Source: Bordetella genomosp. 7 | Lineage (GTDB): Bacteria > Pseudomonadota > Gammaproteobacteria > Burkholderiales > Burkholderiaceae_B | Length of the DNA stretch: 64,000 nucleotides | Reading direction: 5' to 3' | NCBI RefSeq assembly: GCF_002261265.1 | Contig: NZ_NEVK01000007.1 | Span: 62,001 to 126,000, forward strand | Shown here: piece after piece, positions 13,709 through 29,180 of the stretch | Numbering within the stretch: position 1 is the first letter of the stretch | Layout of the letters: each line of letters starts with the position of its first letter | Notes under the pieces: generated by a model | The model's input: only the letters and a program-made list of their open reading frames with translations | What the model was told of the DNA's origin: nothing | Database searches by the model: none | Translations under genes and position numbers: made by a program

Positions 13709-14800
13709 TCAGACGTTGAACAAGAAGTTCATCACGTCCCCATCCTGCACGACGTATTCCTTGCCTTCGGCTCGCATCTTGCCGGCCTCTTTCGCGCCCT
13801 GCTCGCCCTTGCAGGCGATGTAGTCGTCGAACGCAATGGTTTGCGCACGAATGAAGCCGCGCTCGAAGTCGGTGTGGATGACGCCCGCGGCCTGTGGCGC
13901 GGTGGCGCCGATGGGCACCGTCCAGGCGCGCACCTCTTTCACGCCTGCCGTGAAGTAGGTTTGCAGGCCCAGCAGCTTGAAGGCCGCGCGGATCAGGCGG
14001 TTCAGGCCCGGCTCTTCCATGCCCATGTCGGCCAGGAAGACCTGGCGGTCTTCATCCGCAAGGTCGACGATTTCGGATTCGATGGCGGCGCAGATGGCCA
14101 CCACCGGCGCGTTGCGCGACGCGGCGAATTCGGTCAGCCGATCGAGCAGCGGGTTGTTGGTGAAGCCGTCGTCGCTGACGTTGCCGACGTACATGGCCGG
14201 CTTGGCGGTGATGAAGCACAGCTGCTTGATCAGCGCGGTTTCTTCATCAGACAGGTCTACCGAGCGCACGGGCTTGGCCTGGTTGAGCGCGGCGATGCAT
14301 TTTTCAAGCACGGCCACCAGGCGCTGGGCTTCTTTGTCGCCCGACCGGGCGGTCTTGGAATGGCGGTGCAGCGCCTTTTCGGCGGTTTGCAGGTCGGCCA
14401 GGGCCAGTTCGGTTTCGATAACTTCGATGTCCGCAATGGGGTCGACCTTGCCCGACACGTGCACGACGTTGGGGTCTTCGAAGCAGCGCACCACGTTGAC
14501 GATGGCGTCGGTTTCGCGGATGTGCGACAGGAACTGGTTGCCCAGGCCTTCGCCCTGGCTGGCGCCGGCCACCAGGCCGGCGATGTCCACGAATTCCACG
14601 GTGGCAGGCAGCACGCGCTCGGGCTTGACGATCTCGGCCAGTTGCTGCAGGCGCGGATCAGGCACCTCGACCACGCCCACGTTAGGTTCGATGGTGCAGA
14701 AGGGGTAGTTTTCCGCCGCGATGCCCGCGCGGGTCAGGGCGTTGAAAAGCGTCGATTTGCCCACGTTGGGCAGGCCGACGATGCCGCATTGCAGAGCCAT
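13709..14800 (-). CDS. ychF: Redox-regulated ATPase YchF (Obg-family)
   Basis: The protein has 363 residues from ATG 14800 ([22 protein letters not shown]), the family's usual length. G1 is GLPNVGKST (8-16), G3 is [20 protein letters not shown], and the NxxE element that confers ATP over GTP preference is expected near 200 (YVGNVSDDG). A C-terminal TGS domain ends in [16 protein letters not shown]. YchF/OLA1 proteins bind ribosomes and are linked to oxidative-stress responses. An upstream frame extension of 49 codons lacks family character and is not used. It is divergent from the carboxylase operon. Confidence 0.95.
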
Positions 14801-15212
14801 GTAAGTCCTTGATTTATCGGCGCGGTTGCCCAACCGGAACCACGGGCCGGAGCCCGCCGCCTGTGCGCCGGTAATCACCGCCGCCGGCGTCCCGCATGTT
14901 GGATGGGGTATTGCCGCCCCTGTTGCGCCTGCTTGGTCCAAATTCATGCCGATTGTAGCCGCCCTGCCCGGACGCGGCCCCCTGGCTCGACAGCCCCGCG
15001 CCCTACCGCCCCTGATTCCGCGCTACGGGGCGCCCGGGACTGCTCACGCGACCGGCTGCCCGGTTCCGTGAAAGCCGCCACACGCACTTGGGCCCGGCCG
15101 CAACATCTTGATTTTTATGACGGTTTTCCTTTGCTTATGGGCACTTTTGGAATTTCAACTTGCCGCGCCCGGCGCGCCGATGTGAAGATGCCTCGGCGAA
15201 GGAGGATCGCGC
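14801..15212. other. 412-bp divergent intergenic region (ychF / carboxylase operon)
   Basis: No gene is supported here. The left part is GC-rich; the segment at about 15100-15165 is AT-rich (TTGATTTTTATGACGG...) and is the likely promoter region for the catabolic operon, but I cannot define a -35/-10 pair with confidence. A good ribosome site (AAGGAGG) lies 8 bp before the ATG at 15213. Confidence 0.45.
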
Positions 15213-16760
15213 ATGACATGGCAAAACGAACTGAATGACATCGCCGACCGCCAGGCTATTGCCCAGCAAATGGGAGGGGAAGAAAAAGTCGCCCGACACA
15301 AGGCGGCCGGCAAGCTCACGGTGCGCGAACGCATAGACGCTATTGCCGACCCGGGCTCTTTCCAGGAAATCGGCAGTATTACCGGCTTTACCCGATACGA
15401 CGAAAACGGCGCCCTGGCTTCGTACGTGCCGTCGAACCTGATCATGGGGCGGGCGCTGGTCGACGGTCGTCCTGTGGTGCTGGTAGGCGACGACTTCACG
15501 ATACGCGGCGGCGCAAACGATGGCGCCATCACCGAGAAGCTCGCGCACGCCGAACGCATGTCTCATGACTTGGAACTGCCCATGATCCGTCTGGTTGACG
15601 GCACTGGCGGCGGCGGCTCGGTAAAGAACATCGAGACGAAGGGCCACACACTGCTGCCGATGATGCGGGAATGGCAACTGGTTGCCGAAAACCTGGCCCG
15701 CGTACCCGTAGTGGGTCTGGCGCTCGGCTCGGTGGCGGGCAAGGGTGCGGCCCGCGTAGCCGCGAGCCATTACTCGATGATGGTGCGCGGCACGTCGCAA
15801 TTGTTCAATGCCGGCCCGCCCGTGGTCGCCCGTATCGGGCAGAAGCTGGAAAAGAACGAACTGGGCGGCAGCCACATCCATACCCGCAATGGGGTGGTGG
15901 ACGACGAAGTGGGCTCGGAAGCCGAGGCCTTTGCGCGGGCCCGGCGTTTTCTTTCATACCTGCCGCGCTCGGTGTTCGAGCTTGCGCCGCGTGCTGCATG
16001 CACGGACGATCCTGGGCGCCGCGACGAGACTCTGCTCGATGCCATTCCGCGTGATCCGCGCAAGGTGTACAAGATCCGCCCCATACTCGAAAGCGTGATG
16101 GACGCGGGCTCGTTCTTCGAGATCGGCCGCCACTGGGGAAAAGGCATCGTCACCGGATTGGCTCGCCTGGATGGCTGGCCGGTGGCCGTGCTGGCCAGCG
16201 AGCCCTACCACTACGGCGGAATCTGGGACAAGAACACAACCGAGAAATTCACGCGGTTCGTGGACCTGGCCCAGACGTTTCACCTTCCTGTGGTGAACTT
16301 CGTTGACGTGCCCGGCTTCCAGATCGGTATCGAAGCGGAACAGTCGGGCGTGATGCGGGCGGGCGTGCGCGCGCTATCTGCCGTGTACCAGACCACGACG
16401 CCGTGGTGCACGATGATCCTGCGCAAGGCATATGGCGTGGCCGCTGCAGGGCACCAGCATCAAGGCCGTTATGCGCTGCGGTATGCATGGCCCTCGGCCA
16501 ATTGGGGGTCGCTGCCTATCGAGGGCGGCCTGGAAGCGGCATACAAGAGCGAGCTGCTCGCAGCCGAAGATCCGGCGGCCAAACTCCAGGAAATCGAAGC
16601 GCGCCTGCGCCAGTTCGCCTCGCCGGTTCGCAGTGCGGAAGCCTTTGTGATCGAAGAGATCATTGATCCGCGGGACACACGGCGCATTCTCTGCGACTTT
16701 GCCAACCTGGTGGCGCCCCTGCGCAAGGCCGGCTTGACCCACTTTCGCTATCGGCCGTGA
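15213..16760 (+). CDS. Acyl-CoA carboxylase, carboxyltransferase subunit
   Basis: A 515-residue two-domain carboxyltransferase of the PccB/MccB family. The N-terminal crotonase-like half contains KLTVRERIDAIADPGSFQEI (35-54) and GGGGSVKN. The C-terminal half has VNFVDVPGFQIGIEAEQSG and MILRKAYGVAA, the acyl-CoA and biotin-binding walls. It transfers CO2 from carboxybiotin to an acyl-CoA. The ATG is preceded by AAGGAGG. Biotin carboxylase and carrier lie 3 kb downstream in the same operon, with a Bug receptor and an acyl-CoA ligase between. Position-specific differences from PccB and MccB (AAGHQHQGRYALRYAW) mean the acyl substrate is open. Confidence 0.88.
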   Translation: MTWQNELNDIADRQAIAQQMGGEEKVARHKAAGKLTVRERIDAIADPGSFQEIGSITGFTRYDENGALASYVPSNLIMGRALVDGRPVVLVGDDFTIRGGANDGAITEKLAHAERMSHDLELPMIRLVDGTGGGGSVKNIETKGHTLLPMMREWQLVAENLARVPVVGLALGSVAGKGAARVAASHYSMMVRGTSQLFNAGPPVVARIGQKLEKNELGGSHIHTRNGVVDDEVGSEAEAFARARRFLSYLPRSVFELAPRAACTDDPGRRDETLLDAIPRDPRKVYKIRPILESVMDAGSFFEIGRHWGKGIVTGLARLDGWPVAVLASEPYHYGGIWDKNTTEKFTRFVDLAQTFHLPVVNFVDVPGFQIGIEAEQSGVMRAGVRALSAVYQTTTPWCTMILRKAYGVAAAGHQHQGRYALRYAWPSANWGSLPIEGGLEAAYKSELLAAEDPAAKLQEIEARLRQFASPVRSAEAFVIEEIIDPRDTRRILCDFANLVAPLRKAGLTHFRYRP

Positions 16761-16849
16761 AGGCCTGCGCCTGCGCGCCAGCTGTTCATTCCATTTCATA
16801 ACAAGGCCGCCCGCATTGTGTGGAAGTGGCCATAGATTGGAGTCGAGAC

Positions 16850-17836
16850 ATGCAAAGAAGAGCTTTTCTTTCCGCCACGGTGGCGTGCGCCATAGTGGCC
16901 TCCGCCTTTCATGGCACCAGCACGCAGGCGGCGCCCCAGTATCCCGACAAGCCCGTCAACATCATCGTGCCCTTCCCGCCTGGCGGGCTCACCGACCTGA
17001 TCGGCCGCCGTTTTGCGGCTTACCTGGAAAAGAAAACCGGCCAGACTGTGGTGGTGCAGAACCGCGCGGGCGCTAGCGGCCAGGTAGGCGCACAAGCCAT
17101 CGCACGCATGGAGCCCGACGGCTACAACCTTCTGGTCACCGCCACGCACTTTGCGATCAGCGCGGCGGTGCGCGCCGACCTGCCCTACGACCCGGTCGGC
17201 GACTTCGACCCCATCGCGATCTTCGTGACCACACCCAATATCCTGGTGGTGAACGAGAAAGTGCCGGTGCACAGCTTGCGCGAATACATCGACTACGCCA
17301 ACAAGAAGCCGGGCGGCATGTCGTTCGGGTCGTCCGGCACGGGGGGCTCCACTCATCTTTCCGGAGAATTGCTCAAGCATCTTACCGGCGCCAACCTGCA
17401 GCATGTGTCGTACCGGGGCATGGTGCCGCACGTCAATGACCTGGTAGGGGGGCAGATCGAATCCGGCTTCGTGGACCCGAGCTCCGTCATTCAATTCCTG
17501 CAAGAAGGCCGGTTGCGCGCGCTGGCCGTAACCGGGGCGCAGCGCTTTGACATCCTGCCGGATATAGCCACCATCGCGGAACAGGGTGTGGATGGCTACG
17601 AAGCCACCACGTGGATAGCGCTGGCCGCCCCCGCAGGAACGCCCCAGGCCGTCAAGAAGTTCCTGAACCAGGCGGCCATAGAAAGCATGCAGACACCCGA
17701 AGGCAAGGAGTTCCTGCAGCAGATCTCAGCCACTCCATCGACGTTGACTGATGCCCAGGTGAAAGACTACCTGAAGGCCGAAATCGATAAGTGGAAAAAA
17801 GTCGCCGAAGCCGCCAACCTGAGAACGGAAAACTGA
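16850..17836 (+). CDS. Bug-type (TctC) periplasmic solute receptor 1
   Basis: A 328-residue tripartite tricarboxylate transporter receptor. The start ATG 16850 has GGAG 7 bp upstream. The signal region MQRRAFLSATVACAIVAS and cleavage near TQAAPQ precede the family motif YPDKPVNIIVPFPPGGLTD. Further family blocks are VVVQNRAGASGQVG and the FGSSGTGGSTHLSGEL ligand loop. Bug receptors bind small carboxylates; no TctA/TctB membrane genes are near, so it must share a transporter coded elsewhere or act as a sensor. It sits inside the carboxylase operon, 89 bp after the carboxyltransferase gene. Confidence 0.92.
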   Translation: MQRRAFLSATVACAIVASAFHGTSTQAAPQYPDKPVNIIVPFPPGGLTDLIGRRFAAYLEKKTGQTVVVQNRAGASGQVGAQAIARMEPDGYNLLVTATHFAISAAVRADLPYDPVGDFDPIAIFVTTPNILVVNEKVPVHSLREYIDYANKKPGGMSFGSSGTGGSTHLSGELLKHLTGANLQHVSYRGMVPHVNDLVGGQIESGFVDPSSVIQFLQEGRLRALAVTGAQRFDILPDIATIAEQGVDGYEATTWIALAAPAGTPQAVKKFLNQAAIESMQTPEGKEFLQQISATPSTLTDAQVKDYLKAEIDKWKKVAEAANLRTEN

Positions 17837-17838
17837 CC

Positions 17839-19941
17839 TTGAAATCTTCACTGACGCATTTGCTGAACCCCGGGTCCGTCGCGGTGCTCGGGGCATCGGA
17901 TGACCCGCTGAAGCCTGGTGGCCGCGTCATTGACTATATGCGCCGCGCCGCGTATTCCGGCACGATATACCCCATTACCAAGAGCAAGCGCCAGGTGCAG
18001 GGGGTGCCGGCTTTCCAGGCACTGGAAGAACTTCCTGCGGCGCCTGACTTGGTCGTTGTGGCCTTGCCGGAGACGCTGGTCGATGACGCTCTGCGATCTG
18101 CCGTGGCCCTCGGCGCCCGCGGCGCCATTGTGTATGCGTCGGGCTACGCCGAGCTGGGCGATCACGGCCAGGCACGCCAAGCTGAAATCGCCCGCATCGC
18201 CCGGAACGGCGGGCTACGGCTGGTGGGCCCGAACACGCAGGGCGTGGCCAACTTCGCCACCGGGGCAATTGCGCATTTCGGCACCATCATCGATCAGCTG
18301 TCGCCGCCCGTCTCGCCCATCGGCATTGTCAGCCAGAGCGGCGCGGGGTCGCAGATACTGTACGCCCGTCTTGCAGAGCTGGGGCTCGGGGCTCGGTACC
18401 TTGTGGCTACCGGCAACGAAGCAGACGTGGACGTGGCCGATATGGTCGAGGCATTTGTCGAGGACGCCGGCGTCGAGCTGGTGCTCGTGTACGCGGAGTC
18501 GCTGAAGAATCCGCGAAAGCTCGCCCAGGCTGCCTTGAAGGCGCGCGACCGCGGTCTGCCCGTCCTGATGGTGAAGGCCGGCCGCACCCGCAGCGGACAG
18601 CAGACCGCCGCATCACATACGGGCGCCCTGGCTTCCGAAGACCGTCTGGTCGATGTGTTTCTGGAAAAATACGGCGTACTGCGCGCAGCGGACCTGGAAG
18701 AGCTTGCTCAGCTCAGTCAGTTGTTTTTGGCGCAGCGCGGACATCCCGGCAAGCGCCTGACCGTCGTCAGCAACTCGGGCGCGACCTGCGTCATGGCCGC
18801 CGATGCAACCGAAGAATATGGCCTGCAGCTCGGCTCGTTCGACGACGACTTCAAGCGGCGATTGTCCGAAGTCCTGCCGCCCTACATCGCGCCGGGCAAC
18901 CCCATAGACATGACCACGGCGAGCCTGAAGCAGCCAGACCTGTTCGAGCAGATCCTGGGGCGGCTGGAACAAGCTGACAATACCGACATGGTGCTCGCGG
19001 GGTTTCCTGTCGGCGGGAAGGGGTATGACTTCCCGCGCTACGCGCGCGAGTTGCGCGCATTCTCCGATCGGGCAGCCTGCCCGGTAGCGGTGAGCGTCAA
19101 CCAGGAATGGACTGCCGAGATCTTTCGCCGCGAACGCATCCCCGTATTCAGCAGCGAACGACGGGCGGTTGCCGCGCTGGCGCAGCTGGCGCGCTATCAC
19201 GATCGCCGCTCGCGAATGCCGGGCGCGCTGCCCGATGCCCTGTCCGCACGCGCGGCCTTCCCGTACGAGCCTCGCATCCACAATGAACTCGACAGCCTCA
19301 GCCTGCTGGCCGATGCCGGCCTGCCGGTCGTCTCCTACCGCGTTTGCGCGTCCGCTCAAGAAGCGGCCGATGCCTGGAGGGCCATGCAGCATGGGCCCGT
19401 GGTTCTAAAGGGAATCAGCGACCAGATCCATCACAAGTCCGAACACGGGCTGGTGCATGTAGGGCTGACAACGGAAGGCGCCATTCGCGACGCGGCGGAC
19501 ACGCTGCTGCGCCAGTTGCGCGTGCTGGGCGAGACGGATCCGCGGCTGTTGCTCGCACCCTTTGTCCCCGCCGACTTTGAACTGATGGCCGGCGCACAGG
19601 TCGACGGCCAGCTCGGTCCAATGGTTGCCGTCGGCCTGGGAGGCGTGCTGGTCGAAGCGCTGGAGGATATCCGCTTCATCCCCGCTCCACTTACACACGG
19701 CGAAGCGCTGGAGCACCTGTCCCGGCTGCATATTGCACCCGCCTTCGGCGCCCTGCGCGGCATGGCGGCCGTGGATCTCGCGGCCATTGCAGAGATCCTG
19801 GTCAACCTGGGACAGCTGGTCACACAACCGGGCAACCGTATTCGATCGATAGACATCAATCCCATACGAGTACAGCGCGGCGACGCCAGGCCTGTCATTG
19901 TCGACGCGCTGGTGGTGCAAGCGCAGGAGGCCCTGGCATGA
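17839..19941 (+). CDS. Acetate--CoA ligase family protein (ADP-forming, alpha-beta fusion)
   Basis: The 700-residue protein starts at TTG 17839, 2 bp after the receptor stop. It has the order CoA-binding Rossmann domain (HLLNPGSVAVLGASDDPLKPGG, 6-27), succinyl-CoA-ligase-like domain (about 150-300, with His260 in AASHTGALASED, the candidate phospho-histidine), and a C-terminal ATP-grasp domain (about 485-700, VLKGISDQIHHKSEHGLV). The family makes acyl-CoA from free acid, ATP and CoA with release of ADP. It would activate the imported acid or a product of it. The gene ends in an ATGA overlap with the biotin carboxylase gene. Substrate unknown. Confidence 0.88.
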   Translation: MKSSLTHLLNPGSVAVLGASDDPLKPGGRVIDYMRRAAYSGTIYPITKSKRQVQGVPAFQALEELPAAPDLVVVALPETLVDDALRSAVALGARGAIVYASGYAELGDHGQARQAEIARIARNGGLRLVGPNTQGVANFATGAIAHFGTIIDQLSPPVSPIGIVSQSGAGSQILYARLAELGLGARYLVATGNEADVDVADMVEAFVEDAGVELVLVYAESLKNPRKLAQAALKARDRGLPVLMVKAGRTRSGQQTAASHTGALASEDRLVDVFLEKYGVLRAADLEELAQLSQLFLAQRGHPGKRLTVVSNSGATCVMAADATEEYGLQLGSFDDDFKRRLSEVLPPYIAPGNPIDMTTASLKQPDLFEQILGRLEQADNTDMVLAGFPVGGKGYDFPRYARELRAFSDRAACPVAVSVNQEWTAEIFRRERIPVFSSERRAVAALAQLARYHDRRSRMPGALPDALSARAAFPYEPRIHNELDSLSLLADAGLPVVSYRVCASAQEAADAWRAMQHGPVVLKGISDQIHHKSEHGLVHVGLTTEGAIRDAADTLLRQLRVLGETDPRLLLAPFVPADFELMAGAQVDGQLGPMVAVGLGGVLVEALEDIRFIPAPLTHGEALEHLSRLHIAPAFGALRGMAAVDLAAIAEILVNLGQLVTQPGNRIRSIDINPIRVQRGDARPVIVDALVVQAQEALA

Positions 19942-21254
19942 AAGTACTGGTCGCCAACCGGGGGGCGGTCGCCGCGCGCATCCTGCGCGCCCTGAAAGCC
20001 CTGGACATGGAATCGGTGGCTGTGTATTCGGACGCCGATGCCGCCTTGCCCTATCTGCAGGAGGCTGATCAGGCGGTGAACATTGGCGCGGCAAGCGCGC
20101 GCGACAGCTACCTGAACCAGGAAACGCTGTTGCGCACCGCACTTGCGCACGATTGCGCGGCCGTCCATCCAGGGTATGGATTTCTTGCCGAGAACGCGCA
20201 ATTCGCCGAAAGAGTCCAGGCTGCCGGCCTGGCCTTTATCGGCCCCTCGCCGCGCTGGATCTCGCTGCTGGGCGACAAGATACGCGCGCGGCAATATCTG
20301 CAGCCCTTCGGCATGCCCATGCTTCCCAGCAGCGGCGAACTGTACGCGCAGAACGATCTGGCCGCCGCCGTCGATCAATTGGGCTTGCCCGTGCTGCTCA
20401 AACCATCGGGCGGGGGCGGCGGCATCGGCATGGTGCCCATTCGCGAAGCGGCCGAAATCCCCGTCGCCTGGCAGCGGGCAAAGAGCTTATCCGAAAAGGC
20501 TTTCAGCACGTCGGGCCTATACATCGAGAAATTGGCTGTCCGCCCTCGCCATATCGAGTTTCAGTTCCTGGCCGACCGGTATGGCAATGTGCGCTGCCTG
20601 TTCGAACGCGATTGCAGCATCCAGCGACGGCACCAGAAAGTCATCGAAGAAAGCCCGGCGCCCAACGTGCCGCCCGAACGGTTGACTGCCATCATCGCTG
20701 AGCTCGAGCGCATCATGGGCGCGATAGCGTACGACGTGATCGGCACCGTCGAGATGCTGTATGACGCGAATACCGGCTTTCAATTCCTGGAGGTGAACAC
20801 GCGCCTACAGGTCGAACATGCAGTCACCGAGGAAATCACCGGCATAGACATTGTGGCCGCGCAAATCCGGCTAGCCCTGGGAGAACGCCTGGACGAGGTG
20901 CTGCCTGCCCGCATCGCGTGCAACGGCCATGCCATCGAGGCCAGAATCTACGCCGAAGATCCGGTGAGCTTCTTTCCGTCATGCGGCGTGCTGTCGGAAT
21001 TCGCCTTCGCGGCCGATGCGGGCATACGGGTGGAAACCGGCTATGGGCCCGGCAACCGCGTCACCGCTTACTACGACCCGATGCTTGCCAAAGTCATTGC
21101 GCACGCCGCGAATCGCCACGCCTGCATCGATCGCCTGGAACAGGCGCTTGTGCAGTCACGAATCACCGGGGTCAAGACCAATATTCCTTTTGTGCTGCAA
21201 ACCTTGGCGTCCCGGGATTTCCGTCGTGCCGAACATTCCACCGATAACCACTGA
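19938..21254 (+). CDS. Biotin carboxylase subunit (free-standing)
   Basis: A 438-residue biotin carboxylase that overlaps the ligase gene by 4 bp. It begins MKVLVANRGAVAARI, has Lys155 and the ATP-binding glycine loop (158-164, GGGGGIG), the carboxylation motif ERDCSIQRRHQK (223-234) and EVNTRLQVEHAVTE (285-298). The length matches AccC; there is no fused biotin carrier domain, unlike the 650-residue alpha subunits of PccA and MccA. The carrier is the next gene, 7 bp downstream. Together with the carboxyltransferase it forms a three-piece acyl-CoA carboxylase. Confidence 0.92.
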   Translation: MKVLVANRGAVAARILRALKALDMESVAVYSDADAALPYLQEADQAVNIGAASARDSYLNQETLLRTALAHDCAAVHPGYGFLAENAQFAERVQAAGLAFIGPSPRWISLLGDKIRARQYLQPFGMPMLPSSGELYAQNDLAAAVDQLGLPVLLKPSGGGGGIGMVPIREAAEIPVAWQRAKSLSEKAFSTSGLYIEKLAVRPRHIEFQFLADRYGNVRCLFERDCSIQRRHQKVIEESPAPNVPPERLTAIIAELERIMGAIAYDVIGTVEMLYDANTGFQFLEVNTRLQVEHAVTEEITGIDIVAAQIRLALGERLDEVLPARIACNGHAIEARIYAEDPVSFFPSCGVLSEFAFAADAGIRVETGYGPGNRVTAYYDPMLAKVIAHAANRHACIDRLEQALVQSRITGVKTNIPFVLQTLASRDFRRAEHSTDNH

Positions 21255-21261
21255 GGTCGAT

Positions 21262-21486
21262 ATGCGCCAAACTCTATCTGTCTATGCCCCGGTATCCGGC
21301 ACGCTGATTCGCATAAACGTTCGGCCGGGACAGTCCGTGCAGGCGGGCGACCTGTTAGCCATTATCGAATCCATGAAAATGGAAATCCCGGTCGAAGCCG
21401 AAGTGAACGGCACGGTTGATTGCGTGCTGGCCCAGGCTGCCGATGCCGTGGAAGAAGAGCAAGAACTGCTCCGTATCGTTGCGTAG
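21262..21486 (+). CDS. Biotinyl carrier protein (74 aa, single biotinyl domain)
   Basis: A free biotinyl domain of 74 residues from ATG 21262. The biotinylation site ESMKM (36-40) makes Lys39 the attachment residue, and the two symmetric half-barrels are seen in YAPVSGTLIRINVRPGQSVQ and EVNGTVDCVLAQAADAVEEEQ. It has no N-terminal linker, unlike AccB (about 150 aa), so it resembles the minimal carriers of decarboxylases and some acyl-CoA carboxylases. It closes the first catabolic operon; the convergent LysR gene ends 31 bp further on. Confidence 0.92.
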   Translation: MRQTLSVYAPVSGTLIRINVRPGQSVQAGDLLAIIESMKMEIPVEAEVNGTVDCVLAQAADAVEEEQELLRIVA

Positions 21487-21517
21487 TGCCTGCGTTTTCG
21501 CACAAGGCGTGCGCGCA

Positions 21518-22423
21518 TCACGCCGCACGCGGCGTTTCGTCGGAGAACCAATGGTCGATCACATAAGACATGAAGTCGTTTACGTAGTGAATCGACCGTG
21601 CGCCTTCAGCGACCACGGCGTACCGCCTGTGCTGCGACCACTGGGCATCTATAGGAATGCACTTTACGTTGGAATGATCGTAGCGGCGCGCCAGCGATTG
21701 CGGAATCAGTCCCGCGCCGATATTGGCCGCTACCATGTCGTACATGGTCTTGTAGTCTGCCACGCTCACCCGTACGTTCAACTGGCATCCGTGCTCGGCG
21801 AGCCGCTCGCGCAAATAGCTCGTCATTGTGGCGCTCTCGCCCAGCACCACATGTTCGCACGCGGCGAAACGCCGGGCGTCCACGCTATCAAGACGGGCCA
21901 GCTCGGAACTGGCCGAGACGATCATCACCAGCGGGTCCAATCCGAAATCTATGGTCTCGACGCTGAACGACGTTTCAGGGGACGATATAAAGCCGATATC
22001 GAAGCGATCATGCATGATGCCGGTCTCGATTTCTTCTTTGCGTGCGGCGTGGACCGTGATGCTGACGTCGGGATGCTGGGAAAGATAGGCCTTTACCAGT
22101 GCGGGAAGATAGTCGGTTACGTACGACGAACTGGCGGCCACGCGCAGGAATCGGCGTCTCTTGTCTTTGAATTCGTGCAGTTTCAGGTGCATCTCGTCGA
22201 CACTGGCCAACACGCGTTCGGCATACAGCAGGAACGACCGGCCGGCTTCCGTCAGGGCCATGCCGTTGTGCTTGCGATGAAACAAGCGCAAGCCCAGTTC
22301 GCCTTCAAGCGATTTGAGCCGCAGGCTCGCCGCCGGCAACGAAAGAAAGGTGTCCCGCCCCCCGTGGGTCAGGCTTTCGGTGCGGGCAATATTCACCACC
22401 AGACGACAATCGACCAGATCCAT
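21518..22423 (-). CDS. LysR family regulator of the catabolic island
   Basis: A 301-residue LysR regulator from ATG 22423 (MDLVDCRLVVNIARTESL). The N-terminal winged helix shows SLPAASLRLKSLEGELGLRLFHRKHNGMALTEAG. The effector domain (about 90-300) follows. A longer start would add a 35-residue tail without family match. It lies between the two plus-strand operons and is divergent from the second, so it is the natural regulator of one or both. A dyad at 22612-22628 is a candidate binding site. Confidence 0.88.
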   Translation of the reverse strand: MDLVDCRLVVNIARTESLTHGGRDTFLSLPAASLRLKSLEGELGLRLFHRKHNGMALTEAGRSFLLYAERVLASVDEMHLKLHEFKDKRRRFLRVAASSSYVTDYLPALVKAYLSQHPDVSITVHAARKEEIETGIMHDRFDIGFISSPETSFSVETIDFGLDPLVMIVSASSELARLDSVDARRFAACEHVVLGESATMTSYLRERLAEHGCQLNVRVSVADYKTMYDMVAANIGAGLIPQSLARRYDHSNVKCIPIDAQWSQHRRYAVVAEGARSIHYVNDFMSYVIDHWFSDETPRAA

Positions 22424-22725
22424 GATGCTCCGCCCATGGTGCAGGCACGGGGAAAGGACGTAAGACGCGCCAGCAGGCGCGACGGCGTGCGCAACACGCA
22501 TGCTAACCAAACGTGGCAGGGTGCTCAAGCATCTACGGTGCGGCCAAATTTGCCCAGGGCGGGCGCAGGCCCGCCCGCGCGATGGCGCCCAAACCCTGCA
22601 GGGCGCACAGGGTTCATTTGATCAGAACATTGCCCTAAAGAAATCAATATGGTCCAAAGATGCGCACCGCCGCACAATCAAAGAGTGTCGCTTTCTGCCG
22701 TCCTGTTTCCAAGGAATGTCGCAAC
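22424..22725. other. 302-bp divergent regulatory region (LysR / second operon)
   Basis: It contains no gene. It holds a perfect 8-bp GC hairpin at 22557-22576 (GGGCGGGC, loop GCAG, GCCCGCCC) with no T-run, and a GTTC...GAAC dyad at 22612-22628. The ribosome site AAGGAA precedes the ATG of the DUF35 gene. Confidence 0.5.
22612..22628. promoter_or_regulatory. Candidate LysR-type operator
   Basis: The dyad GTTC-N9-GAAC has a TTC-N9-GAA core as in many LysR sites. It lies 189 bp upstream of the LysR start and about 100 bp upstream of the DUF35 gene. The assignment rests on position and symmetry only. Confidence 0.35.
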
Positions 22726-23112
22726 ATGCCCGATACGCAATCCACCGAGGCCATAGGCCCCGATAGGTACTTTCACGACCGGCTCGCGCAAGGCCGTTTT
22801 CTTATCCAGCACTGCGCCGCGTGCTCGCGCCATGTGTTCTACCCGCGCATGCTCTGCCCCCATTGCGGTGGTTCACAACTGGACTGGGTAGCTCCGTCCG
22901 GCCGGGGGACGATCTATTCCACCACTGTGATCCGACGCAGGCCTGAGCAAGGCGGCGACTACCACGTGGCGCTGGTCGACCTGGAAGAAGGCGTGCGCAT
23001 GATGTCCCGCGTCGAGGGCGTCGCCCCCGCCGCAGTCAAGATCGGCATGCAAGTCCAAGCGGCCATCACTCGCGGCGAAGACGGAAACCAGATCGTCTTC
23101 CGCCTTGCCTAG
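22726..23112 (+). CDS. Zn-ribbon OB-fold (DUF35) protein, thiolase partner
   Basis: A 128-residue protein from ATG 22726, with AAGGAA upstream. The N-terminal zinc ribbon has Cys30-x2-Cys33 and Cys44-x2-Cys47 (HCAACSR, LCPHCGG), followed by the OB-fold (GRGTIYSTTVIRRRP onward). DUF35 proteins bind acyl-CoA and form complexes with thiolase-like enzymes, as in the ChsH2/Ltp2 steroid side-chain aldolase. The thiolase-like gene follows 11 bp downstream, which fits that pairing. It has no catalytic residues of its own that I can identify. Confidence 0.88.
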   Translation: MPDTQSTEAIGPDRYFHDRLAQGRFLIQHCAACSRHVFYPRMLCPHCGGSQLDWVAPSGRGTIYSTTVIRRRPEQGGDYHVALVDLEEGVRMMSRVEGVAPAAVKIGMQVQAAITRGEDGNQIVFRLA

Positions 23113-23123
23113 GAAAGAAACAC

Positions 23124-24296
23124 ATGGCACTCAATCAACTTCGCGGCGCGGCCGCCATCACGGGCGTGGGCCAGGCCGGCCTGGGCGAGGCCCACGGCTA
23201 TACAGAGATGGAAATCCTGGTGCAGTCAGCCCAGCTGGCCGTTGCCGATGCCGGCCTGACGATGCAGGACATCGATGGCATCGCCACTGCCAGCGTGTCC
23301 TCGACTATGTGGGCCATGCCGGTTATTGAACACTTGGGAATCCGCCCCACGTTCATAGACAACACGATGGTGGGCGGCTCGAGTTTCGTCGCCCATCTGA
23401 TGCCGGCCATCCTTGCCCTGAACTCGGGCCAATGCAACGCCGTCCTAGTTTGTTACGGCAGTACGCAGCGCACGTCCACGATTAACCGCGCCGAGGTTGG
23501 AAAGGCGCGCCGCAAGCTGGACCCGCAACCCTACGAGAACCCATATCAGCCGTTGAACCCGCTGAGCTCGTATGCCTTGGCTGCCGCCCGGCACATGTAC
23601 CAGTACGGCACGACACGCGAGCAATTGGCCGAAGTGGCGGTTGCCGCCCGGAAGTGGGCCCGGCTCAATCCCGAAGCCTTCATGCGTGATGCGCTGACCA
23701 TTGACGACGTCTTGAACTCACGCATGGTTTCGGACCCGCTGACCGTACGCGACTGCTGCCTGGTAACGGATGGCGCCGGCGCCTACGTGCTGGTGCGTGC
23801 AGACCGAGCGCGCGACATGAGGCACAAGCCGGTCTACGTGCTGGGCAACTCCACGGCATGCTGGAATCGCCAGATCTCGTCCATGCACGATTTGACGGTC
23901 ACGGCTGCCCAGCAATCCGGCCGCATCGCCTTCGAGATGTCGGGGCTGAAACCGGCCGACATCGACGTGCTTGAACTGTACGACGCCTTCACCATCAACA
24001 CCATTCTGTTCCTGGAGGACCTGGGCTTCTGCAAGAAGGGGGAAGGCGGCTCATTCGTCAGCGGCGGCGCCATCGCGCCGGGAGGACGCCTGCCGGTGAA
24101 CACCAATGGCGGTGGCCTGTCGTGCGTACACCCGGGCATGTACGGCATTTTTATCTTGATCGAGGCTGTCCGCCAGCTACGCGGGAACTGCGGCGAACGC
24201 CAGGTCGCGAATGCGCAGACCGCGGTGGTGCATGGCAACGGCGGCACCCTGTCCAGTCAATCGACCGCCATCCTGGGAACGGAGGCCGTGCTTTAG
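23124..24296 (+). CDS. Thiolase-superfamily protein of the SCP-x/Ltp2 (lipid-transfer) type
   Basis: A 390-residue thiolase-fold protein. The position of the usual nucleophilic cysteine carries serines (VGGSSFVAH, Ser86/Ser87), so it is not a standard thiolase. Tyr286 (LELYDAFT), His336 and Tyr340 (CVHPGMYG) are conserved features of the Ltp2-type retro-aldolases, and HGNGG (370-374) closes the fold. With the DUF35 partner directly upstream, an aldol-type cleavage of an acyl-CoA, releasing acetyl- or propionyl-CoA plus a ketone or aldehyde, is the best guess. A thiolase-like C-C bond chemistry with other substrates cannot be excluded. Confidence 0.85.
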   Translation: MALNQLRGAAAITGVGQAGLGEAHGYTEMEILVQSAQLAVADAGLTMQDIDGIATASVSSTMWAMPVIEHLGIRPTFIDNTMVGGSSFVAHLMPAILALNSGQCNAVLVCYGSTQRTSTINRAEVGKARRKLDPQPYENPYQPLNPLSSYALAAARHMYQYGTTREQLAEVAVAARKWARLNPEAFMRDALTIDDVLNSRMVSDPLTVRDCCLVTDGAGAYVLVRADRARDMRHKPVYVLGNSTACWNRQISSMHDLTVTAAQQSGRIAFEMSGLKPADIDVLELYDAFTINTILFLEDLGFCKKGEGGSFVSGGAIAPGGRLPVNTNGGGLSCVHPGMYGIFILIEAVRQLRGNCGERQVANAQTAVVHGNGGTLSSQSTAILGTEAVL

Positions 24297-24374
24297 AAGG
24301 GGAAATGCGCAACGCCGTTGCGCCCCGCGGGGCGGGTTCACCCTCGCTCCGGAACAATGACACGAGGAGACACC

Positions 24375-25343
24375 ATGAAGATCCGTATTCTGTGCTGCGC
24401 TCTGTTCGCCTGCGCGGCGGCTCTGCCGCTTGCCGCGCACGCTGCATGGCCAGACCGCCCCATCACCATCGTTGTGCCCGCCTCTCCCGGGGGCACGACC
24501 GACATGGCAGCCCGAGCCATCAGCGAGCCGATGGCTCGGCACCTGGGCGCCACAGTCGTCATCGAAAACCGCGCCGGCGCGGGCGGCATCGTCGGCACCC
24601 AGCAAGTGGCGCGCGCCGCCCCCGACGGCTACACACTGCTGATGGGCAATATTGGCCCCAATGCCATCAACTACAGCATGTACCGCGACCTGCCGTACTC
24701 ACCCGACGACTTTCAAGCCATCACGCTGGCCATCGCCGTACCGAACGTCCTGGTTGTCAATGCCGACACGCCTGCGTCGTCGGTGCAGGACCTGATCGCC
24801 CTGTATAAGAAGAACCCCGAAAAGATTACGATGGGCAGTTCGGGTACTGGGCAATCGCCTCATATGTCGGGCGAGCTGTTCAAGCTTCGCACCGGCATGG
24901 AAACACCCCATGTTCCCTACAAGGGCGCCGCGCCTGCCGTGACCGCGCTGCTGGGCAACCAGTTCACTTTCATGGTCGACAACCTGCCGAGTTCGCTTGC
25001 GCAGATCCAGGCAGGGCGGCTGCGCGCACTGGCCATCACCAGCGAAGCGCGCAATCCGCAGTTGCCCGACGTGCCGACCATGGCCGAGGCCGGCGTGCCG
25101 GACATGGTGGTTACCGCATGGTTCGGACTGTTCGCCCCCAAGGGAACGCCGAACGATGTGGTTCAGAAAATCTACGAGGCCGCCAGGTCGGCCATGGAAA
25201 CGCCGGCAGTCAGGCAGCGTTTCGAGAATCTGGGCGGCGTCGTCGGCGGCAACTCCCCGGCGCAATTCGAGAGCTTCGTCAAGTCGCAACGCGAACTGTG
25301 GGCGGGCACGGTCAAGGCGGCCAATATCTCGGCAGGGAATTGA
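24375..25343 (+). CDS. Bug-type (TctC) periplasmic solute receptor 2
   Basis: 322 residues from ATG 24375 with GAGGAGA upstream. Signal peptide MKIRILCCALFACAAALPLAAHA, then the motif WPDRPITIVVPASPGGTTDMAA. The ligand-loop form is MGSSGTGQSPHMSGELF. It lies between the thiolase-like and CoA-transferase genes; its stop is directly followed by the ATG of the transferase. It differs clearly in sequence from receptors 1 and 3, so the three probably bind different or related acids. Confidence 0.92.
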   Translation: MKIRILCCALFACAAALPLAAHAAWPDRPITIVVPASPGGTTDMAARAISEPMARHLGATVVIENRAGAGGIVGTQQVARAAPDGYTLLMGNIGPNAINYSMYRDLPYSPDDFQAITLAIAVPNVLVVNADTPASSVQDLIALYKKNPEKITMGSSGTGQSPHMSGELFKLRTGMETPHVPYKGAAPAVTALLGNQFTFMVDNLPSSLAQIQAGRLRALAITSEARNPQLPDVPTMAEAGVPDMVVTAWFGLFAPKGTPNDVVQKIYEAARSAMETPAVRQRFENLGGVVGGNSPAQFESFVKSQRELWAGTVKAANISAGN

Positions 25344-26015
25344 ATGATCAACAAGATCAAGTCCTCGCATCGTGAGGCGCTGACAGTAATACACGACGGA
25401 GCCTCGATCATGGTGGGCGGCTTCGGAGACTCCGGCATTCCGTTTGAACTCATCAGTTCGCTACTGGACATGGGCGCCAAAGACCTCACCATCATCAGCA
25501 ACAATGCAGGCGCCGGCGAACGCGGCATCGCGGCGCTCATCAAGGCGAACCGCGTGAACAAGGTGATCTGCTCGCACCCCAGGCCGCCGCGCTCGGAAAT
25601 TTTTGCCGACGCTTACCGATCGGGGCGGGTGCAATTGGAATGCGTGCCACAGGGCACGCTTGCCGAACGCATCCGCGCCGCAGGCGCAGGGTTGGGCCCC
25701 TTCTACACGCCGACGGGCTACGGCACCCGGGTGGCCGAGGGCAAGCAAACCTGCGTGATCGACGGCAAGGGCTACGTGCTGGAACAGCCGCTGTCCGCCG
25801 ATTTTGCGCTGGTGCGCGCGCACCAGGCAGACCGCCTGGGCAACCTGATGTACCGGCTCGCGGCCAGGAACTTCAATCCCCTCATGTGCATGGCGGCGCG
25901 CCACACCATTGTGCAGGCCGACGAGATCGTCGAAGCGGGGTCGTTGCCGCCGGAATACATCATGACCCAAGCCCTGTTCGTCAACGCTGTTGTCTTGGCA
26001 GAATCCGATGAATAA
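25344..26015 (+). CDS. 3-oxoacid/3-oxoadipate-type CoA-transferase, subunit A
   Basis: A 223-residue alpha subunit with the family signature GASIMVGGFGDSGIPFELI (19-37) and the conserved YGTRVAEG block. It is translationally linked: its ATG immediately follows the receptor TGA, and its stop overlaps the subunit B start by 8 bp. The enzyme would transfer CoA from succinyl-CoA (or acetyl-CoA) to the free acid, giving a second CoA-activation route next to the ADP-forming ligase. Confidence 0.9.
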   Translation: MINKIKSSHREALTVIHDGASIMVGGFGDSGIPFELISSLLDMGAKDLTIISNNAGAGERGIAALIKANRVNKVICSHPRPPRSEIFADAYRSGRVQLECVPQGTLAERIRAAGAGLGPFYTPTGYGTRVAEGKQTCVIDGKGYVLEQPLSADFALVRAHQADRLGNLMYRLAARNFNPLMCMAARHTIVQADEIVEAGSLPPEYIMTQALFVNAVVLAESDE

Positions 26016-26706
26016 GCCCATTTCGCTCAGCCGGCAGCAGATCGCGCAACTGGTCGCGCAGGACATCCCCGAAGGCGCAAGCGTCAATCTGGGTATCGGC
26101 ATGCCCACGCTGGTGGCCGATTATCTTCCCCCCGATCGCGAGATCCTGCTGCACAGCGAGAACGGCATCCTGGGCATGGGAGCCGCCGCCGAAGGCGATC
26201 AGGCCGACCCCGACCTGATAAACGCCAGCCGTGTACCGGTAGTGCTGATACCCGGCGCCTCCATCACCGACCACGCCACATCGTTCGCAATGATGCGGGG
26301 CGGACGTCTCGACTTCAGCATCCTGGGCGGCTTCCAGGTGGCGTGCAACGGGGATCTCGCGAACTGGCTCACCGACGCGCCCGATGCCATCCCCGCCATT
26401 GGCGGCGCCATGGACCTTGCCGTGGGCGCTCGCCAGGTGCTGGTGATGATGGATCACACGACCAAGTCCGGAGAAACGCGCCTGCTCGCGCAATGCACTT
26501 ACCCGCTTACCGGTGTGGGCGTGGTCGATACCGTCTACACCAACTACGCGGTCGTCGATGTGCGCGACCAGCGTTTTGTGCTGCGCGCCATCGTGGATGG
26601 CATGACAGTGGACGAACTGCAGGCCATGACCGGGGCGCCCTTGCATGTGGAGGGCGCACTGCGCAGGATCCGCCTGCACGGCACGGGCATGGCTCGAATC
26701 GAATAA
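26008..26706 (+). CDS. 3-oxoacid/3-oxoadipate-type CoA-transferase, subunit B
   Basis: A 232-residue beta subunit from ATG 26008. The catalytic glutamate lies in LLHSENGILGMG, which is the active-site motif of class I CoA-transferases. NLGIGMPTLVADYLPPDREI precedes it. Start choice is favoured by the 8-bp overlap with subunit A; a TTG further upstream adds six residues. It forms the heteromeric enzyme with subunit A. The acid substrate is not evident from sequence. Confidence 0.9.
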   Translation: MNKPISLSRQQIAQLVAQDIPEGASVNLGIGMPTLVADYLPPDREILLHSENGILGMGAAAEGDQADPDLINASRVPVVLIPGASITDHATSFAMMRGGRLDFSILGGFQVACNGDLANWLTDAPDAIPAIGGAMDLAVGARQVLVMMDHTTKSGETRLLAQCTYPLTGVGVVDTVYTNYAVVDVRDQRFVLRAIVDGMTVDELQAMTGAPLHVEGALRRIRLHGTGMARIE

Positions 26707-26778
26707 ACCCATGATCCCTGGCATGGGCCCCATGCAGCACCGCGCAACCGCGCCATGACAACCAGGAGGAGACACACT

Positions 26779-27750
26779 ATGTTCCGCCGCATCGCGTTCC
26801 GTGGTCTTGCATCGTTACTGGCCGCGGGCGTCATGGGTCTTGCCCATGCCGCCGATTTTCCCAGCCAGCCCATCAAGTTGATGATCCCGTATCCGCCCGG
26901 TGGCAGCGCAGACATGCTGGCCCGCCCGCTATCCGCTGAGCTGCAGAAAGCACTGGGCCAGCCCATCGTGCTGGATTACAAGCCGGGCGCGGGCGGAACC
27001 ATTGCGAGCGCGCAGCTGGCTCGCGCCGAGCCTGACGGCCATACTGTGCTGATGGTGCTCACCGCGCACGCGATCAACCCCAGCCTGTATCGCAACCTGC
27101 CCTACGATACCCGCAAGGATTTTGCGCCGGTGTCTCTGGTTGCCCAGCTGCCGCTGGTGGTTGCCGCGCCCTTGGCCACTCCCGCCGATAATATGCAGGA
27201 GCTAGTGGCCTATGCAAAGAAGAACCCGGGCAAGTTGACCTTCGCGTCGGCCGGCAACGGCAACACCAGCCACCTGGCCGCCGAGATGTTCAAGTCCGTG
27301 ACAGACACCGATATGCTGCATGTGCCATACAAGGGCAGCGGCCCGGCGGTGATCGCCCTGCTGGCCGGCGATGTGTCGCTGATGTTCGACAGCATCTCCA
27401 CATCGGTCAGCCATGTGCAAAGCGGGAAGCTGAAGGCGCTTGCCGTAACGGGCGACAACCGCTCGTCGTTGTTGCCAGACGTTCCCACCGTGAAAGAATC
27501 CGGCTTTCCTGATTTCTCGGTCACTGGGTGGTACGGCATCATCGCCCCCGCGGGCACATCGCCGGAAGTCATCGATCGCCTCAGCCAGGCGTTTGCCAGG
27601 GCGGCCAATCAGCCGCAGATCAAGGCACAGCTCAATGGCATGGGCTACGACGTCATCGCTTCGACGCCATCCGAGTTCCACACACACATCGACCGGGAAC
27701 TCACGCGCTGGGGCAAGCTGACCAAGGACGCCGGCGTGCAGATGCAATAA
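26779..27750 (+). CDS. Bug-type (TctC) periplasmic solute receptor 3
   Basis: 323 residues from ATG 26779 with AGGAGGAG upstream. Signal peptide ends near MGLAHAADF; the motif FPSQPIKLMIPYPPGGSADMLAR and the ligand loop FASAGNGNTSHLAAEMF follow. It is the last gene of the second catabolic operon, 72 bp after subunit B. It is the third such receptor within 11 kb. No membrane component of the transporter is encoded here. Confidence 0.92.
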   Translation: MFRRIAFRGLASLLAAGVMGLAHAADFPSQPIKLMIPYPPGGSADMLARPLSAELQKALGQPIVLDYKPGAGGTIASAQLARAEPDGHTVLMVLTAHAINPSLYRNLPYDTRKDFAPVSLVAQLPLVVAAPLATPADNMQELVAYAKKNPGKLTFASAGNGNTSHLAAEMFKSVTDTDMLHVPYKGSGPAVIALLAGDVSLMFDSISTSVSHVQSGKLKALAVTGDNRSSLLPDVPTVKESGFPDFSVTGWYGIIAPAGTSPEVIDRLSQAFARAANQPQIKAQLNGMGYDVIASTPSEFHTHIDRELTRWGKLTKDAGVQMQ

Positions 27751-27813: not shown

Positions 27814-28572
27814 TTAACCCGCCCCCAGCACCAGCAGGATAAGCAACATGGGCCCCGCATTGAAGACCCCGTGCAGGGCTACCGCCGCGCCAAAGCCGCG
27901 CCGCACGCGTATCCAGCCCAGCACCAGCCCGGTGGCCCACTGGGGCAGCACCAGCAGCGGCAACATCCAGTAGGCCGTATCGGCCAGGATGAAGTTGTTC
28001 AAGTGCACGCTGGCGAATGCCAGCGATGACAGGTGATACACCCAGCCGAAACGCATACGGTATTGCCGGCGCCAATCCATGCGCCAGCGTTTGCGGCTGA
28101 TGCGTCCGCGCGCCAGAGGGCGGCTGGCCGCCAGCAGCACGACTGCGGCCCAGGCAAGGGTCCAGCCGTGCACGCCCCACAGCAGCGGCGGCAGTATGGC
28201 CGGGCACACCCACAGGGCTTGCAGCGGCCGGCGCAAACCATAACGAAACAGCGTTTCTTCGATCAGCGGCGCCCACAATATGGCGGTCAGCCACGGAATG
28301 GCGGACGGGTCGAGCCGGTGCGATGCGCCGGCCGCGCCGGCGGCCGTCACGGCGATGGGCCCCAGCGCGAAGAAGTTCAGCCCCCACAATACGGCTGCCC
28401 ATGCCAGCAGCCGCGATATGGGCACGCCCGGGCGCCAGTCGCTGGCAAGACTGCTGCCGGCGTTCCGGCCCGGCAGGCGCGCAAGATCGGGGCGACGCAA
28501 GAAGCGCCAGAAGTCGGCGAACTCGTCGCGAAAACGCAGTTTGCCGCCAGGCATGGCTGTAGCCGAGCGCAT
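27814..28572 (-). CDS. CPBP family intramembrane metalloprotease
   Basis: A 252-residue membrane protein from ATG 28572, 8 bp after the pth stop. It carries the CPBP/CAAX-protease core: Glu105-Glu106-x3-Arg110 (APLIEETLFRYG), His190 (FASVHLNNF) and His234-x3-Asn238 (LHGVFNAG). These three motifs bind the catalytic metal in the family. At least six hydrophobic segments are visible. The family cleaves membrane proteins or prenylated peptides; the substrate here is unknown. It probably shares the pth transcript. Confidence 0.85.
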   Translation of the reverse strand: MRSATAMPGGKLRFRDEFADFWRFLRRPDLARLPGRNAGSSLASDWRPGVPISRLLAWAAVLWGLNFFALGPIAVTAAGAAGASHRLDPSAIPWLTAILWAPLIEETLFRYGLRRPLQALWVCPAILPPLLWGVHGWTLAWAAVVLLAASRPLARGRISRKRWRMDWRRQYRMRFGWVYHLSSLAFASVHLNNFILADTAYWMLPLLVLPQWATGLVLGWIRVRRGFGAAVALHGVFNAGPMLLILLVLGAG

Positions 28573-28580
28573 GATGCGGC

Positions 28581-29180
28581 TCAAGCGCCGTTGCCGCTGT
28601 GCAGTTGGCGGGTGGCCAGCGCGAAATCGCCGTCCAGCATGGCCGGCACGATGGCCCGGCAACGGTGGATGACGTCATCGATGCCGGCCTGTTCGTCGCG
28701 CCGCGGCGGGTGCAGCACGAAATCGGCCACCTGCTGCGCCAGGCCCAGCGTGCGCGGATGGCCGATGCCGATGCGTACGCGCCAGAAATTGGGGCTGCCC
28801 AGGGCGGCCTGGATGTCTTTGAGACCATTGTGACCGGCATGGCCGCCGCCTTGCTTGAGCTTGACCTGGCCGGGCAGCAGATCGAGCTCGTCGTGCAGCA
28901 CCAGCACCTGTTCGGGCGCCAGCTTGTAGAAGCGCGCCAGAGCGCCCACGGCTTGCCCGGATCGGTTCATATAGGTAATGGGCTTGGCCAGCAGCACGCT
29001 TTCGCCCGCATGGCGGGCCTTGGCCACCATGGCGAAGAACCCTTTTTCAAGCGTGTAGCTTGCCCGCAGGTCGTCGGCCACATGGTCGGCGAGCCAGAAG
29101 CCGGCATTGTGGCGGGTGGTTTCGTAGTCGGGCCCGGGGTTGCCCAGGCCCACGATCAGGCGTATGGCAGTAGACATCAT
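28581..29180 (-). CDS. pth: Peptidyl-tRNA hydrolase
   Basis: A 199-residue Pth with [19 protein letters not shown]; His24 is the catalytic base and Asn25 (HN) and the following Asp ([10 protein letters not shown]) complete the active site. The [12 protein letters not shown] loop binds the tRNA end. It releases tRNA from prematurely ended peptidyl-tRNA. It follows rplY after a hairpin at 29197-29228, an arrangement common in betaproteobacteria. ATG 29180 and 29177 are both possible starts. Confidence 0.95.

Follow-up and report, generated by a model that had tools for sequence, protein, structure and literature searches.

A 64,000-nucleotide stretch of the Bordetella genomosp. 7 genome (contig NZ_NEVK01000007.1, positions 62,001 to 126,000; hereafter the window) carries an insertion of about 12.5 kb in which the genes of an acyl-CoA carboxylase and of a DUF35-dependent carbon-carbon lyase stand with CoA-activating enzymes and Bug receptors. 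The block is real, conserved in pieces and recurrent in combination, and it draws attention to two unassigned families, one of carboxylases and one of lyases, that recur together. By gene order and spacing, the basis on which we speak of operons, it comprises two plus-strand operons with a minus-strand LysR gene between them. Operon A encodes a carboxyltransferase (CT), Bug1, an ADP-forming ligase, a biotin carboxylase (BC) and a biotin carboxyl carrier protein (BCCP); operon B encodes a DUF35 protein, a thiolase-fold protein (the lyase), Bug2, CoA-transferase subunits A and B, and Bug3 (Table 1). We see an even chance that the two operons act together in a single route for the breakdown of an organic acid.

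Recurrent linkage of the carboxylase and the lyase

Homologues of the two enzymes also stand together in other genomes. Relatives were taken from fetched loci, for which one search kept the best 80 of at least 587 confirmed stretches, and a CT match of at least 50% was counted as paired with a lyase match of at least 35% within 12 kb. This yielded 23 rows and, after three duplicates of one genome were dropped (L198 = L010, L118 = L011, L115 = L026), 20 distinct loci, which form a non-random sample because loci were picked for holding the lyase or the CT. Type I (nine loci) has the order Bug-CT-BC-BCCP-ECH/HADH-DUF35-lyase-CoATA-CoATB, in which ECH/HADH is an enoyl-CoA hydratase/3-hydroxyacyl-CoA dehydrogenase and CoATA and CoATB are the CoA-transferase subunits. 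A divergent aldehyde dehydrogenase gene and a 3-hydroxyisobutyrate-dehydrogenase-like gene accompany five of the nine; L011, outside those five, covers less than 2 kb upstream of its CT. Type II (five loci) reads DUF35-lyase-(Bug in one)-CoATA-CoATB-CT-BC-BCCP-Bug-SDR-MaoC, where SDR is a short-chain dehydrogenase/reductase, and type III (three loci) comprises the window, L113 and L179. Type IIIb (two loci) reads CT-Bug-ligase-BC-BCCP-DUF35-lyase-HADH, its HADH gene having no hydratase part (the HADH-only genes of L182 and L185 were assigned by match and reading), and type IV (one locus) reads SDR-CaiB-BCCP-BC-CT-lyase-DUF35-MaoC-Bug.

A CoA-activating enzyme is present at all 20 loci: CoA-transferase A/B at 16, an ADP-forming ligase at five and a CaiB-type enzyme at one, with two kinds at two loci. 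A hydratase occurs at 15/20 and a dehydrogenase at 17/20, and all three functions are supplied by non-homologous alternatives across the loci. Pfam models were applied to the ECH/HADH of L010 and to the SDR and MaoC of type II locus L122; the other assignments are tblastn matches read with gene spacing. The original prediction had observed that the block holds no hydratase or dehydrogenase and had argued from this about the pathway. The observation stands, as no gene in 15213-27750 was hit by a model for either a hydratase or a 3-hydroxyacyl-CoA dehydrogenase, but the argument fails because most relatives carry both functions. Only the window and two other loci (3/20) are without a local hydratase and dehydrogenase. 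Elsewhere, the window's own genome holds a CaiB-ACAD-ACAD-thiolase-ECH/HADH cluster (ACAD, acyl-CoA dehydrogenase) that could supply these steps to the island.

Among 268 genomes of the family, the CT (E <= 1e-180) occupies 63 places in 57 genomes. A lyase lies within 12 kb of 27 of these places at E <= 1e-190 and of 11 more at E <= 1e-110, the latter read by eye, giving 38/63. On a FastTree phylogeny of the lyase, restricted to the 98 of 113 rows that reach 400 bits and so without L196, the 19 CT-linked rows fall into five groups. Linkage state changes at least five times in a 43-row subset of the 98, gains and losses being indistinguishable, and a single clade of linked rows is rejected by the approximately unbiased test on a quick tree (p-AU 9e-6). 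Some rows scored as unlinked lie on short contigs that could hide a CT. As the linked rows fall into five groups and one clade is rejected, a coupling of carboxylase and lyase is supported.

The two operons might instead be independent modules, a possibility that we take seriously while doubting it: the lyase/CoA-transferase operon would be part of a pathway that lacks a carboxylase (CaiB, two acyl-CoA dehydrogenases, MaoC, SDR and the DUF35/lyase pair, with other genes elsewhere), and the carboxylase operon would serve another acid. Several observations weigh against a single route. The operon B order DUF35-lyase-Bug2-CoATA-CoATB-Bug3 is the same in Advenella mandrilli (L002) and, without Bug3, nearly so in Pollutimonas subterranea (L001); the stretches fetched for these two loci contain no carboxylase match and carry ACAD, SDR, MaoC and CaiB genes. 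The window lyase groups with L001-L003 and not with the CT-linked L113 and L179 (support 0.895). The lyase at E <= 1e-190 is found in 97 of the 268 family genomes as against 57 for the CT, 25 of the 63 CT places have no linked lyase at the cut-offs above, and 16 of 34 re-searched genomes have no lyase at E <= 1e-110. Furthermore, the carboxylase operon stands without the lyase in the 20-kb stretches L181, L183 and L184, and the G135 cluster has no CoA-transferase. On the other hand, the arrangement of operon A, LysR and operon B recurs in three genomes of two genera (the window's, G001 and G135), CT-lyase linkage appears in the five tree groups, and the genes of both operons form tight runs in types I, II, IIIb and IV.

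A DUF35-dependent lyase with an aldolase-like active site

The closest solved relatives of the lyase by E-value are 4u4e (a thiolase), then 9myr (3.9e-58) and Ltp2 (6ok1, 2e-54), with benzoylsuccinyl-CoA thiolase (9.8e-42) and acetoacetyl-CoA thiolase (2.6e-39) farther away. We take 9myr to be the entry for Sal, as PMC12329534 names 9MYR. The same paper gives the catalytic residues as Tyr294 and Tyr344 in Ltp2 and as Tyr302 and Cys304 in Sal, and our Ltp2 numbering, counted by hand on the alignment, fits the motif described there. Tyr286 of the window lyase occupies the place of Ltp2 Tyr294 and Sal Tyr302; together with Ala288, His336 and Tyr340 it is invariant in 98/98 sequences that score 400 bits or more, the window's included. 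At 200-400 bits Tyr286 is kept in 4/4 sequences and Ala288 and Tyr340 in 0/4, which detracts from the reading developed here; below 200 bits (n = 11) nine sequences have His at the Tyr286 place and two have Tyr. In the window lyase the nucleophile segment contains no Cys, whereas nine SCP2-type rows of the same alignment read NNNC and HDCF.

A classical thiolase was therefore rejected as a candidate, the nucleophilic Cys and the motif His both being absent. Since Tyr takes the motif place and the nucleophile segment holds no Cys, the pair is, judged by its residues, aldolase-like, as had been proposed for it, and retro-aldol cleavage would be likeliest, ahead of retro-Claisen cleavage. The window pair shares with Ltp2/ChsH2 and Sal/Shy-DUF35 (PMC12329534) the SCP2-thiolase fold, the DUF35 partner, the catalytic Tyr of the Y-D-x-F/Y motif and the lack of a nucleophilic Cys. 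It differs from them in having Ala288 at the place of Sal Cys304 and Ltp2 His296, His336 at that of Ltp2 Tyr344, the additional Tyr340 that is invariant in close relatives, and the linkage to a carboxylase. The acid residue thus appears to differ from that of both known aldolases.

It is rather unlikely that the pair acts as a retro-Claisen enzyme like benzoylsuccinyl-CoA thiolase (BbsAB), cleaving a 3-oxoacyl-CoA formed by the linked dehydrogenase. Such a role would suit the dehydrogenases of the CT-lyase clusters and also the dehydrogenase matches within 6 kb of 30 of the 52 lyase loci that have 6 kb of sequence on both sides, a further point against retro-aldol cleavage. BbsAB is likewise a DUF35 and thiolase-fold pair, alignable in its C-terminal half, and BbsB shares D-A-F-T of the motif (LELHDAFT vs LELYDAFT). 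The carboxylase-free relatives of the window lyase adjoin CaiB, acyl-CoA dehydrogenase and SDR genes, as do bbs operons. However, BbsB retains the motif His that is Tyr in every close relative of the window lyase, the nucleophile-segment Cys is missing, and by E-value the window lyase is nearer to 9myr and Ltp2 than to BbsB.

Around the same 52 loci, a CT lies within 6 kb at five, a CoA-transferase at nine, an acyl-CoA dehydrogenase match at 38 and a Bug match at 39. Aldehyde dehydrogenase was dropped as a general partner of the lyase, being near only 2/52 at a 35% threshold. Another copy of the lyase gene (86%), also with a DUF35 gene, is present in the window's own genome (L173:9543-10718; G000:C1:378554-379714). 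The open reading frame (ORF) after it gives weak ureidoglycolate-lyase matches that stay below the cut-off, and in L113 the CoA-transferase is followed by a related ORF that does pass the Pfam cut-off.

An unassigned acyl-CoA carboxylase family

The CT, BC and BCCP, the last with the biotinylation lysine in ESMKM, make up a biotin-dependent acyl-CoA carboxylase. A CT phylogeny was built from 63 rows (62 different) without any named propionyl-CoA carboxylase (PCC) or 3-methylcrotonyl-CoA carboxylase (MCC), and the program warned of long branches. The family of the window CT, 46 rows that include nine from a sister family of 43-50% identity, is split from all other rows with support of 100/100. 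Nine rows that we take to be MCC type by a motif, and in the case of the own-genome row by motif and neighbours, lie apart from it and include the second CT of the window's genome (present twice). Only two rows, L100 and L101, have PCC-type loops, and the family is split from these with the same support and the same long-branch flag.

Two conserved loops, which presumably shape the active site, differ in 43 family rows from those of solved PCCs, of L100/L101 and of eight MCC-type rows; five other distant CT rows also have loops of their own. In the alignment to solved PCCs and L100/L101, the window CT shows neither PCC-type loop (AGG-x-YSPA, YGGAYDVM). The GGAY-D stretch, in which we assume the acyl-specificity residue of PCC to lie, is replaced and shortened relative to solved PCCs. 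The window CT also has no extra N-terminal helix, its residue 7 aligning to PCC residue 5. According to PMC4673880, a long N-terminal helix (about 30 residues) is present in the gamma-carboxylating lineage and absent from the alpha-carboxylating one. By this criterion (PMC4673880) the CT is like the enzymes that add the carboxyl group to the alpha carbon of saturated acids. Carboxylation after cleavage would then also fit, besides the order put forward in the original prediction, carboxylation and then retro-aldol cleavage. The enzyme is best described, from its sequence, as an unassigned acyl-CoA carboxylase that is probably nearer the alpha-carboxylating lineage.

We think it quite improbable that the carboxylase is a PCC salvaging propionyl-CoA released by the lyase. 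PCC beta chains (the PccB lineage) are indeed the nearest solved relatives of the CT and have the same N-terminal length, apart from it the window's genome has a single full-length CT match, of the presumed MCC type, and a gene of the methylmalonyl-CoA-mutase family (PF01642) is present there. But PF01642 was found in only 5 of the 10 CT-positive genomes searched (G000, G008, G027, G038 and G040; not in G001, G002, G006, G007 and G018), the loops and the GGAY-D stretch are changed, and BC and the 74-aa BCCP are free-standing in the window. Least probable is a gamma-carboxylase of the MCC or geranyl-CoA carboxylase kind within a leucine or terpenoid-acid variant, with the DUF35 pair standing in for HMG-CoA lyase and the 3-oxo acid product passing to the CoA-transferase: its chemistry presumably fits, as would the hydratases of relatives and the 3-oxoacid-type CoA-transferase, but the CT lies outside the MCC-type group, has neither its loops nor the N-terminal helix, and coexists with a separate MCC-type CT. 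Leucine and geranyl assignments find no support in the CT tree or the loops, and a propionate assignment finds none in the loops.

CT genes of the window family also occur with no BC or lyase matched nearby (L187, L188, L189, L192, L193 and L206), the lone CT adjoining a Bug gene in L187 and L188. The 43-50% related CT family adjoins ORFs read by eye as CaiB-type CoA-transferases in L125, L128, L129, L130 and L132, some with Bug and BCCP genes, which may represent a sister carboxylase route. In L181, L183, L184 and L185 the CT is preceded by a divergent ORF of 542-596 aa; Pfam identifies that of L185 as a sigma-54 activator, and that of L184 reads alike.

Proposed route

In the single route that we favour, the Bug receptors would bind the acid, and its CoA ester would be made by the ADP-forming ligase, the CoA-transferase or both. 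The CT-BC-BCCP enzyme would carboxylate an acyl-CoA, and the DUF35/thiolase-fold pair would break a carbon-carbon bond adjacent to the thioester; the likeliest reaction is a retro-aldol cleavage in which Tyr286 serves as base and a 3-hydroxyacyl-CoA is the substrate. A free 3-oxo acid arising as product may be activated again by the CoA-transferase, and hydration and dehydrogenation, encoded in the cluster in most relatives, would here be provided in trans. The branched or tertiary acid suggested as substrate in the original prediction is conjecture.

Leucine and terpenoid-acid routes follow a logic of activation, carboxylation and cleavage, and in the Liu and Atu pathways CoA activation, carboxylation and hydration lead to carbon-carbon cleavage to a 3-oxo acid. 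The predicted route resembles these 3-methylcrotonyl- and geranyl-CoA carboxylase pathways without appearing to be a member: both its CT group and its lyase family differ on comparison, and the island has no hydratase. Its CoA-transferase resembles succinyl-CoA:3-oxoacid CoA-transferase, both subunits scoring over the family cut-offs, but adjoins an ADP-forming ligase. Tentatively, the block may be a new module for an acid beyond the reach of beta-oxidation alone. A carboxylase of new specificity, marked by the changed loops, would work in sequence with a DUF35-dependent retro-aldolase of a third kind, in which His336/Tyr340 would provide the acid beside Tyr286. The module would recur in Alcaligenaceae, where its parts for activation, hydration and dehydrogenation can be exchanged for one another.

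Our searches of the open-licence PubMed Central literature yielded no description of this gene set and no homologous cluster with a known substrate, in line with the original prediction, whose author knew of no described pathway with this exact set. A lead on Castellaniella monoterpene degradation was dropped, as the terms listed for that paper include neither carboxylase nor thiolase. Assigning the substrate would name a route and correct labels in the style of 'thiolase' or 'propionyl-CoA carboxylase', and could make available enzymes that carboxylate CoA esters or carry out aldol reactions on them.

Gene content, distribution and insertion site

The genes listed in Table 1 account for the span 15213-27750, with family matches far above chance; genes outside BLAST matches were called by a simple rule of length and codon GC. 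All genes named in the original prediction were found in place, and the LysR gene is an addition to them. Promoter-like and terminator-like sites were near chance (2 vs 3.0 expected and 13 vs 10.5 expected, respectively).

Table 1 Genes of the catabolic block and its flanks in the window
Feature	Position	Strand	Evidence
ychF	13709..14947	-	
CT (beta) subunit, PCC-beta-like, 515 aa, unassigned acyl-CoA carboxylase family	15213..16760	+	Pfam Carboxyl_trans 1.3e-85; tree; loops
Bug1, TctC-family periplasmic receptor	16820..17836	+	PF03401 6e-65
ADP-forming acyl-CoA ligase, 716 aa, alpha-beta fused	17791..19941	+	CoA_binding_2, Succ_CoA_lig, ATP-grasp_5
BC, 438 aa	19938..21254	+	3.4e-54; Pfam, NCBIfam, solved biotin carboxylases
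BCCP, 74 aa, ESMKM biotinylation motif	21262..21486	+	Biotin_lipoyl 2.5e-16
LysR-type regulator	21518..22423	-	HTH_1, LysR_substrate
DUF35 (ChsH2-like) zinc-ribbon/OB-fold partner, two C-x2-C pairs	about 22726..23112 (longest ORF start 22660)	+	OB_ChsH2_C, zf-ChsH2; ChsH2 6ok1_B 2.4e-17
Putative SCP2-thiolase-fold C-C lyase, Y286 A288 H336 Y340	23124..24296	+	NCBIfam PRK06158 686 bits, cut-off 421
Bug2, TctC-family receptor	24318..25343	+	PF03401 6e-77
CoA-transferase subunit A, 3-oxoacid type	25344..26015	+	TIGR02429 331 bits over 128.5
CoA-transferase subunit B, 3-oxoacid type, SENG motif	25990..26706	+	TIGR02428 280 bits over 243.55
Bug3, TctC-family receptor	26755..27750	+	PF03401 3e-81
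CAAX-protease-like gene	27814..28662	-	
pth	28581..29180	-	

The nearest solved relatives of the ADP-forming ligase are 3-hydroxypropionate- and 4-hydroxybutyrate-CoA ligases, and those of Bug2 include a terephthalate-binding protein and BugD. Uptake had been regarded as covered by the block; this holds for the three receptors and not for a complete tripartite tricarboxylate transporter, since the TctA permease occurs at five places in the genome, all on contigs other than the window's (TctB was not searched). Outside the family, a CT at E <= 1e-170 was found in 2/369 genomes drawn from the class, one being the window's own and the other G337, where the 14.6 kb fetched around the CT contain no other island gene.

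The host genome measures 4.13 Mb in eight contigs, and the block lies in it between ychF and the CAAX-protease-like gene with pth. These flanking genes adjoin directly in the congeners G004 and G006, where the interval is closed, and enclose other genes in G003, G005, G008 and G135, which bears out the earlier term 'island'. As cargo, G003 has an MFS-like gene, and G005 and G008 have a gene set that includes a Bug gene (labels other than Bug, pth, CAAX and ychF were assigned by eye), and in G001 the cluster is on a different contig from ychF and pth. The interval from ychF to CAAX/pth is a variable insertion site within the genus.

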